Assembly (NCBI GenBank): GCA_020881835.1
Contig: CP052876.1
Coordinates: 1,984,001 to 2,048,000 of the forward strand
Length of the DNA: 64,000 nucleotides
Direction of reading: 5' to 3'
Origin: Kineosporiaceae bacterium SCSIO 59966
GTDB taxonomy: Bacteria > Actinomycetota > Actinomycetes > Actinomycetales > SCSIO-59966
The notes below the pieces were generated by a model that was given only the letters and a program-made list of their open reading frames with translations, had not been told where the DNA came from and did no database searches. Position numbers and translations under genes: made by a program. Shown one piece after another: positions 4,996-48,732 of the stretch; within the stretch, counting starts at the first letter, position 1; every line of letters begins with the position of its first letter.

Positions 4996-5239
4996 GTGAT
5001 CACGCAATCCCGCCACCCACCCGGCCCACCGGCCGGGCTCGCAGAATGCTGGGTTGGCGGCGCAACACGCCGGTCAAGCCGCGCTGAGCGCAGCATTCTG
5101 TGGTGGCGGCACCCGACCCGCCGTGGGCTGACACGGCACGGCGACCAGGACCCCGCTTCGTCCCTCGAGGAGGCGCGAGCGGCCATGAGACGTACATGCA
5201 GCCCCCTACCCCCGCAAGGTGGCGGGATTGCATGATCAC
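4996..5239. repeat. Composite intergenic repeat 1 (22-mer, 59-base core inverted, 22-mer reversed)
   Basis: The left 22-mer is at 4996-5017 (core GATCACGCAATCCCGCCACC, one base off consensus) and a perfect reversed copy is at 5218-5239. Between them lies the 59-base core 5042-5100, bounded by CAGAATGCTG and CAGCATTCTG. Compared with the other three composites the core is in the opposite orientation. Just left of the element are two copies of GATCAGTCNGAGTCCCTCGTC (from about 4954), a module that also borders composites 3 and 4. It lies between the 3' end of the RNB ribonuclease gene and the 5' end of rnpB. Confidence 0.85.
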
Positions 5240-22661: not shown

Positions 22662-22758
22662 GCCGAGTCCCGACCGGACCGGCTCCGACCCGGCGTCCGG
22701 CCGGGTCGAGCCGGTGGCCCCGGCTGCGGCGTCCGGCTGTGGTTGGGAAGATGGACGG

Positions 22759-23430
22759 GTGCCACGCCGCCACCACCGCCCCGCGCTGCTGAGCAGCGAC
22801 GTGCTGGAGTCGCTCCAGGGCGGTGCCGGCGACCCGGCCCTGCGGGCGGAGGCCGCCCACGCCACCGCCCGGCTCCTCGTCGAAGGGGTCCGCGACGAGC
22901 AGGACGCCGAGCTGTCGGCGCGGGTCGTCCGCCTCGCCGACGAGTACGGCCTCGAGCCCCTCGCCGAGCTGTGGGCCGACTCTCCACCGGACTCCCTGCC
23001 AGGTGCCCTGTGGCGCCTCTACGCGTTGCGCCAGTGGGTGCACGCCGACCCTGCGGCGGCGGCGGCACAGTTCGCCGAGGGAAGCCGCCGCGCCCCGGTC
23101 CACCACGCCGTCGCGGGAGTGGCCGACCCGCCCGGCCCCGAGGAGGTGCGCTCGCTCGTCGACGCCGTGCTCTCCGGAGTAGCCCACGGGGACGTCGCCA
23201 CCACCCTGGAACGGGCTGCTGCCTTCGCCCGCGTCGTCGCCGTCGGGCGGGCGGACCAGGCCGCGGACTCCCCCGGCGCGACCGCCGTCGGGACTGCGGG
23301 CAGCGAGGGCAGCCGGCTGACGATGTCCGCCGCTCGGCTCGTGCGGACCGCCGAACAGCTCGAGGTGGCCGCTCGGCGCCTGCGCGAGAACGACCGCCGC
23401 CGGGAAGCATCCGAGGACTCACCGGGTTAG
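22759..23430 (+). CDS. Hypothetical protein, helical
   Basis: A 223-residue Ala- and Glu-rich protein, predicted mostly helical, starting at the GTG at 22759 (VPRRHHRPALLSSDVLESLQ). Recognisable stretches are HATARLLVEGVRDEQDAELS, LWRLYALRQWVHADPAAAAA and a C-terminal coiled segment AARLVRTAEQLEVAARRLRE. No family recognised. Its stop is nine bases before a highly structured RNA element, which may be the end of its transcript. Confidence 0.75.
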   Translation: MPRRHHRPALLSSDVLESLQGGAGDPALRAEAAHATARLLVEGVRDEQDAELSARVVRLADEYGLEPLAELWADSPPDSLPGALWRLYALRQWVHADPAAAAAQFAEGSRRAPVHHAVAGVADPPGPEEVRSLVDAVLSGVAHGDVATTLERAAAFARVVAVGRADQAADSPGATAVGTAGSEGSRLTMSAARLVRTAEQLEVAARRLRENDRRREASEDSPG

Positions 23431-23438
23431 GGTTGGTC

Positions 23439-23523
23439 GTGCGCCGGGCCGCGGTAGCCCCGGGCTCCACTTCAAGCCGCTTCGAGCGGCCACGCGCCGA
23501 GAGGCGCTCCCGGCCCGGCGCAC
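23439..23523 (+). ncRNA. Predicted four-way-junction RNA structure
   Basis: A closing stem of 12 perfect pairs (23439-23450 with 23512-23523) encloses three hairpins. The first is AGCC/GGCT at 23456-23466. The second is GCCGCT/AGCGGC at 23476-23490. The third is GCGCC/GGCGC at 23494-23507 with the GNRA loop GAGA. The fold is visible by eye and all loops are small. It begins nine bases after a stop codon, so it may be a 3' terminator or stabiliser of that mRNA or an independent small RNA. I know no family that matches. The palindromic parts would fold on either strand, so the strand is chosen from the upstream gene. Confidence 0.5.
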
Positions 23524-23635
23524 CTCACTCTCTCGCTTACTCCCGGTGTGGAGGCCGTGCGTCCAGCGACCGCTGAGACGGCCACCGCCGTTGCGCGCAT
23601 ACCTGAGGCGAGAACGGGTACTCACTGGCTGTGAG
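23524..23635 (+). other. Intergenic stretch between structured RNA and terminator
   Basis: No coding frame is credible here. Because the region ends at a strong rightward terminator without an annotated gene before it, it may belong to a small transcript of about 150-250 bases that includes the four-way junction. No promoter is evident. Confidence 0.3.
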
Positions 23636-23682
23636 CCGGGGCTCCATGAAGGACCTCTGGAGCCCCGGTGATCGATTTTTTA
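23636..23682 (+). terminator. Rho-independent terminator with U-tract
   Basis: CCGGGGCTCC (23636-23645) pairs perfectly with GGAGCCCCGG (23659-23668) across a 13-base loop, followed by TGATCGATTTTTT. A 10-pair GC stem plus a six-T tract is rare in this very GC-rich window and terminates rightward transcription. The other strand has no T run after the stem. Confidence 0.8.
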
Positions 23683-23892
23683 CTTTCGCTTGACTCTCAC
23701 TTGCCGACCGGAGAGGATTCCGGTGCGGCCCCTCTCAAGGGGCCGTCCACCCGTCCGTGGCGGCTTCCGCGGACGCGCGACACACCCGTCGCTCGGTGGT
23801 CCTCCCCGGAGGATGGGACCGGACCCGGTCCGGCGGCGCAGCTCGAGGGGACGCCGCCGAGCCGGGTTCACCCCGTTGTGGAGGTCTCCCTG
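23683..23892. other. Intergenic stretch before tRNA-Met
   Basis: About 210 bases between the terminator and the 3' end of tRNA-Met. I see no credible gene; frames on both strands are short and of shadow-like composition. A purine-poor run CCCCGGAGGATGGGACCGG near 23805 has no interpretable context. Confidence 0.4.
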
Positions 23893-23995: not shown

Positions 23996-24369
23996 GTGAT
24001 CATGCAATCCCGCCACCCCCAAGTCCCCCCTCGGTGATCATGCAATCCCGCCACCCGCCGGCCCACCCCTCGGTGATCATGCAATCCCGCCACCCGCCGA
24101 GCCACCCCTCGGTGATCATGCAATCCCGCCACCCGCCGAGCGACGTGCACTCCCTCCTGAGGGCTCGCGGCTACAGTCCGACCCCTCGCAGAATGCTGGG
24201 TTCGTCACAGCTCTGCCGGCGAGTCGCGCCACCAACTCAGCATTCTGCGGGCTGGCCCGGGGGCCCGGTGGCGGGGTGGCGGGATTGCATGATCACGACG
24301 AGGGGACTGTCGACTGATCACGGGTGGGCCCGGTGGCGGGGTGGCGGGGTGGCGGGATTGCATGATCAC
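23996..24369. repeat. Composite intergenic repeat 3 (four forward, core, two reversed 22-mers)
   Basis: Four perfect forward 22-mers start at 23996, 24034, 24073 and 24112 (spacing 38-39). The 59-base core is at 24189-24247. Reversed copies are at 24275-24296 and 24348-24369. Spacers in the forward array are similar to one another (CGCCG-CCACCCCTCG), so the tandem unit is about 39 bases. The module GGACTGTCGACTGATCAC near 24304 matches the border of composite 1. The whole element fills the space between tRNA-Met and tRNA-Asn. Confidence 0.9.
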
Positions 24370-48528: not shown

Positions 48529-48732
48529 GTGATCATGCAATCCCGCCACCCCTCAACCCCACCGTGATCATGCAATCCCGCCACCCCTCAGCCCCTCCGT
48601 GATCATGCAATCCCGCCACCCTCCTCTCACAGAATGCTGCGCCCGGAGGATCGTTGCCGGCGTGTCGCGCCTGCGAGCCAGCACTCTGCGAGTGAGCGGG
48701 CGAGGACTGGGGTGGCGGGATTGCATGATCAC
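48529..48732. repeat. Composite intergenic repeat 4 (three forward, core, one reversed 22-mer)
   Basis: Perfect forward 22-mers start at 48529, 48564 and 48599 (spacing 35). The 59-base core is at 48630-48688, with CAGCACTCTG as a one-base variant of its right arm. A reversed 22-mer ends the element at 48711-48732, followed by GACGAGGGGTTGAGGTCCGA and CTGACC, resembling the border of composite 1. It fills the gap between the convergent Gmad2-protein and dnaJ genes. Confidence 0.9.

Follow-up and report, generated by a model that had tools for sequence, protein, structure and literature searches.

Introduction

Promoters of the stress sigma factor SigR follow the published consensus GGAAT-N18-GTT (PMC2375139; PMC9205884). 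The SigR regulon contains transcription and translation factors, and tmRNA is listed as a member (PMC5472188; PMC4921905). In S. coelicolor, the HelD/HelR and malic-enzyme genes carry the published names SCO2952 and SCO2951. The first of these gives its name to scr2952, a small RNA (sRNA) whose expression is reported to be confirmed and which is listed as conserved in more than half of the Streptomyces tested (Vockenhuber et al. 2011, cited in PMC8388888). Structured RNAs common to the actinomycetes, including Streptomyces, mycobacteria and Nocardia, are few.

The locus described here occupies positions 23439-23523 of the forward strand of a 64,000-nucleotide stretch (the window) of the genome of Kineosporiaceae bacterium SCSIO 59966, where the original prediction, made from the letters alone, had placed a possible novel RNA. 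It is rather likely the site of a stand-alone sRNA gene that has a stress promoter, is conserved across the class Actinomycetes and acts in trans. The gene, its strand, its structure, its promoter elements and the changes in its neighbours are established by comparison of homologous sequences.

A structured core with a three-way junction

The segment 23439-23523 folds with an energy of -57 kcal/mol, against -41.8 +/- 3.4 kcal/mol for shuffled versions (z -4.46), and none of 200 shuffles folds as well. The order beyond background that first drew attention to the site is therefore real. Energy folding yields a 13-pair closing stem with three hairpins, one of them capped by a GAGA loop, which is the shape originally proposed, and the stem does start nine bases past a stop codon (TAG at 23428-23430). 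Comparison of 110 homologs retains the closing stem and two of the hairpins. It identifies the remaining hairpin, 23453-23468, as an artefact of energy folding, and covariation replaces the proposed four-way junction with a three-way junction from which a near-invariant strand is left free.

The closing stem P1 pairs 23440-23451 with 23511-23522. The compensatory changes on which the original prediction had staked its case run through the whole of it: all 12 pairs have changed on both sides, 93.1% of alignment cells are paired, and one pair occurs as all six pair types among the 110 sequences. P1 is extended into the junction by P1b, formed by the strands 23453-23457 and 23507-23510 through the pairs 23453-23510, 23454-23509, 23456-23508 and 23457-23507. 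All four pairs of P1b show changes on both sides and 80.9% of cells are paired; the pair 23457-23507 is GC in 66 sequences, AU in 19, UA in 4 and CG in 3. The hairpin 23453-23468 reaches 75.3% of cells, and its four variable pairs hold in about 55-68%. A four-way junction with three covarying hairpins within the closing stem is thus rejected, since the first hairpin fails and P1b is better supported. The covariation score is 0.348 for the three-way and 0.281 for the four-way arrangement, and shuffled controls do not exceed about 0.16; for the three-way fold the shuffle mean is 0.162 and slid partners give 0.04-0.08. All such covariation counts overstate the number of independent events because the cells share ancestry.

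The free junction strand CCCCGGGCUCCA (23458-23469) reads CCCCGGG or CCCCCGG in essentially all 110 homologs, followed mostly by pyrimidines and then CA. An invariant CC/GG mini-hairpin of two pairs may form within the junction. An RNAalifold consensus of 30 close sequences that pairs CCCCGGG with P4 was also rejected, as its variable pairs fail and it almost never appears in the ensemble; the invariant pairs of that alternative may nevertheless act as a switch. The energy model places the three-way fold with free CCCCGGG about 6 kcal/mol above its own optimum, a deficit that would have to be made good by tertiary contacts or by a partner.

Two hairpins lie within the junction. P3, GCCGCUUCGAGCGGC at 23476-23490, closes a UNCGA pentaloop and is 100% paired, one of its pairs being CG in 90 sequences, UA in 19 and GC in 1. 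P4 (23494-23507) carries the GAGA loop at 23499-23502, and its four inner pairs are formed in 99.1% of cells. The P4 loop belongs to the GNRA class in 91 of the 110 sequences (GAGA 55, GTGA 29, GCGA 7), and the others read GACA, GACT or GTCA. A long subtype of about 110-125 nt has a larger arm in place of P3 and keeps both CCCCGGG and P4. At loci L168 and L169, two long-subtype copies, or possibly three in L168, share a genome at a spacing of 1-4 kb. A SigR-type promoter precedes each of them, and L169 also contains a cobalamin riboswitch at 714-900.

Distribution among actinomycetes

A blastn search with 23425-23700 finds a single copy in the genome of origin and homologs in 57 of 59 genomes of the same order, from many families and with up to 97% identity. 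Nearly all matches are limited to about query bases 10-104. The alignable part is the RNA with its -10 region, and the flanks do not align. A covariance model built from 30 same-order homologs matches in 99 of 197 genomes of the class. After rebuilding from the 110 homologs with the corrected structure, the model matches in 130 of the 197 (116 of 173 good ones), and in 68 of 121 genomes of one family that contains Mycobacterium-type genera. Among 198 genomes of the phylum that were searched, the matches all fall in members of the class and 0 of the 181 from other classes match, under filters strict enough that weak matches may be lost. The copy number is one in most genomes and two to four in some. 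Among the carriers known by name are Mycolicibacterium, Rhodococcus erythropolis and Nocardia carnea; a strict pattern derived from fast-growing mycobacteria finds matches in fast growers, Rhodococcus and Nocardia and none in M. tuberculosis.

Scanning with Rfam 15 (cmscan) gives nothing above the gathering cut-off at the window site, in agreement with the original remark that the fold resembled no recognised RNA class. The same scan finds no match in the Streptomyces-type, Mycobacterium-type and other homologs or in the long subtype. Judged by its distribution, the RNA gene is ancient and class-wide, being present in most of the actinomycetes sampled. Rfam does not contain it, so it is missed by annotation pipelines that depend on Rfam. 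The RNA also occurs, at 87% identity, in two "Bacteriophage sp." records that come from human stool and have no annotation (MT835541.1:30642-30731 and MT838127.1:59-135); these may be pieces of bacterial DNA or the edges of prophages.

Promoter and transcript ends

Immediately upstream of the closing stem the window contains a SigR/SigH-type promoter match on the forward strand (23403-23433), with GGAAG at 23403-23407 and GTT at 23426-23428 separated by 18 nt. It differs from the SigR consensus by one mismatch, having G at the fifth base where the consensus has T. A -10 box, TAGGGT at 23428-23433, overlaps both this GTT and the upstream stop codon. When the 70 nt before the stem were searched for GGAAN-N16-19-GTT, with control stretches as background, the motif was found in 65 of 132 homologs, mostly with a spacer of 18, against 0.3% in the background. 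By group it occurs in 13 of 53 same-order loci, 35 of 61 other short-form loci and 17 of 18 long-form loci. A TANNNT box lies 8-16 nt before the stem in 65 of 114 loci (background 0.9%); many same-order loci have the housekeeping -10 box only, the SigR-type motif being present in about a quarter. A SigH/SigR homolog scores over the cut-off in 188 of the 197 class genomes, the genome of origin included, and so near-universal a presence was discarded as an uninformative discriminator. A literature search for a conserved sRNA that depends on SigR or SigH found none.

Transcription would start from the RNA's own promoter directly before the closing stem, probably at about 23436-23440. The promoter would consist of a housekeeping -10 box, joined in many lineages by a SigR/SigH-type element responding to thiol-oxidative, heat and translation stress. 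In a number of loci (L057, L058, L060, L093, L095 and L096, and likewise L130, L137, L043, L045, L050 and L053) promoter and closing stem seem to be separated by the insertion of one more GC-rich hairpin, so that the transcript would open with an additional 5′ hairpin.

For the 3′ end, a U-tract terminator had been proposed at 23636-23682. The 11-pair hairpin at 23636-23668 is real, but the run of six T follows it only after a gap of seven bases, which is not a canonical intrinsic arrangement. The element (23636-23681, forward strand), found by reading the sequence and by script, is thus a possible transcript 3′ end, and a consensus terminator scan does not list it. Strict hairpin-plus-T terminators occur within 150 nt downstream in 13 of 113 loci, against 1.3% in the background, and by blastn the sequence beyond the RNA core, 3′ end included, is not conserved in relatives.

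Proposed mode of action

The RNA is expected to be stable and to rise in stress, and to act in trans by presenting its CCCCGGG strand and GNRA hairpin to a conserved partner. A protein or ribonucleoprotein partner, from the transcription or translation machinery, is somewhat likelier than base pairing to individual mRNAs, since the class as a whole conserves the structure and loops and lets the stem sequence drift. The transcription and translation factors of the SigR regulon, and the tmRNA listed with them, make a machinery-linked role reasonable. A more specific proposal is a tentative one: when thiol-oxidative or translation stress sets in, a class-wide RNA of a breadth like that of Ms1 may bind a core machine, whether the ribosome, RNA polymerase or an RNA chaperone. 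The uncharacterised protein whose gene adjoins it in many lineages perhaps takes part.

Binding of a protein or ribonucleoprotein is ranked above mRNA pairing, and mRNA pairing above dimerisation. That the RNA is a base-pairing sRNA is a serious possibility, though not the expected outcome. The stretch CCCCGGG-YYYC-A would then pair with the purine-rich ribosome-binding sites of several mRNAs, as C-rich actinobacterial sRNAs do. A C-rich, near-invariant strand freed in a fold with covariation support is what such an sRNA would offer, and stress-sigma promoters are typical of the group. The near-invariant GGG and the self-complementary CCCGGG, however, fit poorly with a simple seed against ribosome-binding sites, and it would be unusual for a seed and its structural scaffold both to stay fixed throughout a class. 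The same palindrome could instead join two copies of the RNA in a dimer or kissing complex, in stress or at high concentration. This is improbable. In its favour, the fold supported by covariation leaves this near-invariant palindrome unpaired; against it, the energy model prefers intramolecular pairing for part of the strand.

The promoter motifs would link the RNA with the main response to thiol-oxidative and translation stress, a response that also bears on antibiotic tolerance. Given the covariance model, the promoter and the near-invariant strand, its function can be tested directly in model species.

Genomic context

Upstream of the RNA in the window, on the same strand, is a gene for an uncharacterised protein of 238 aa (22714-23430). 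The protein belongs to a family of about 200 aa for which profile searches find no Pfam, NCBIfam or PDB family, and its single-sequence structure model has a mean pLDDT of 50 and is not usable. On the 3′ side the window has a tRNA gene in the opposite orientation. Elsewhere the surroundings differ. Streptomyces-type loci have the RNA between the HelD/HelR gene and the malic-enzyme gene. Mycobacterial loci have genes for a WhiB protein, for an EspM-like regulator and for a carboxyltransferase recognised by reading the sequence. Further neighbours are a DNA polymerase III alpha-like gene, DUF47-pit and tRNA. No downstream gene is constant among the homolog loci.

In 20 loci DUF47, accompanied by the Pit phosphate transporter, follows the RNA in the same orientation, sometimes 23-95 nt away. 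This raises the possibility of a riboswitch-like, cis-acting leader of the DUF47-pit phosphate-transport operon that became detached in other lineages. Such an origin is very unlikely. In Streptomyces-, Mycolicibacterium-, Nocardioides- and Micromonospora-like loci the RNA is followed by other genes, convergent genes or terminators, and in the window by the opposite-strand tRNA gene; some of the loci adjacent to pit have a second -10 box between RNA and operon, and across loci the RNA has no conserved position in the 5′ leader of any one gene family. At four loci (L028, L088, L061 and L009) the RNA is 23-95 nt ahead of the DUF47-pit operon, with which it may be co-transcribed, and in L028 it directly precedes a ribosome-binding site.

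Least probable of all is that the element is a 3′ UTR structure, or an sRNA derived from the 3′ UTR, of the upstream gene: in 37 of 51 long loci a homolog of that gene lies upstream in the same orientation (within 300 nt of the RNA in 36 of the 37), but promoter elements stand between gene and RNA, or on the stop codon in the window, far above background, and the upstream gene differs in Streptomyces-type, Mycolicibacterium and other loci. Since the neighbours change between lineages, the element is read as a stand-alone RNA gene, neither a leader nor a 3′ UTR. Of the two possibilities left open by the original prediction, an elaborate 3′ end or a separate small RNA, the second is supported by the promoter over the upstream stop codon and by this exchange of neighbours.

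The window also contains 15 copies (up to 1 mismatch) of the 21-mer GTGATCATGCAATCCCGCCAC, a repeat family that is lineage-specific as judged by sequence searches. The 3.1-Mb genome has 168 forward and 164 reverse exact copies, against 0 for the reversed control, and the 19-base core is present in only 1 of 58 related genomes searched, with one copy per strand. Copies often form short tandem arrays opposite inverted copies. Four copies 38-39 apart lie at 23996-24132, with inverted copies at 24276-24296 and 24349-24369; further window sites are at 4996, 5219, 8607, 11326, 11591 and 48529-48732.

Comparison with known systems

The Streptomyces member of the family is probably scr2952, matched by name and by position. 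The text that cites scr2952 (PMC8388888) gives, where it treats this RNA, neither structure nor promoter class, wider family or function. The Rfam families RF02827 (Scr6106) and RF02829 (Scr4115) were considered and are distinct from scr2952. A search of the literature turned up no account of the RNA family or of its occurrence throughout the class, its SigR-type promoter or its function.

With the SigR/SigH regulon of Streptomyces and Mycobacterium the RNA shares, in many loci, the promoter motif and its 18-nt spacer, and its putative membership is read from this motif. The 6C RNA (RF01066) is likewise an actinobacterial sRNA with exposed C runs and a link to development or stress. In contrast to the present RNA it displays two C-rich hairpin loops and has no such junction, and the site scores below its gathering threshold. 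Ms1 and 6S RNA (RF02566, RF00013) resemble the family in being class-wide structured sRNAs of actinobacteria. Ms1 has a 304-position model and a different fold, and the site reaches a best score of 11 bits against a cut-off of 162. By analogy with Ms1 and 6S RNA, the RNA may have a role in binding the cellular machinery.
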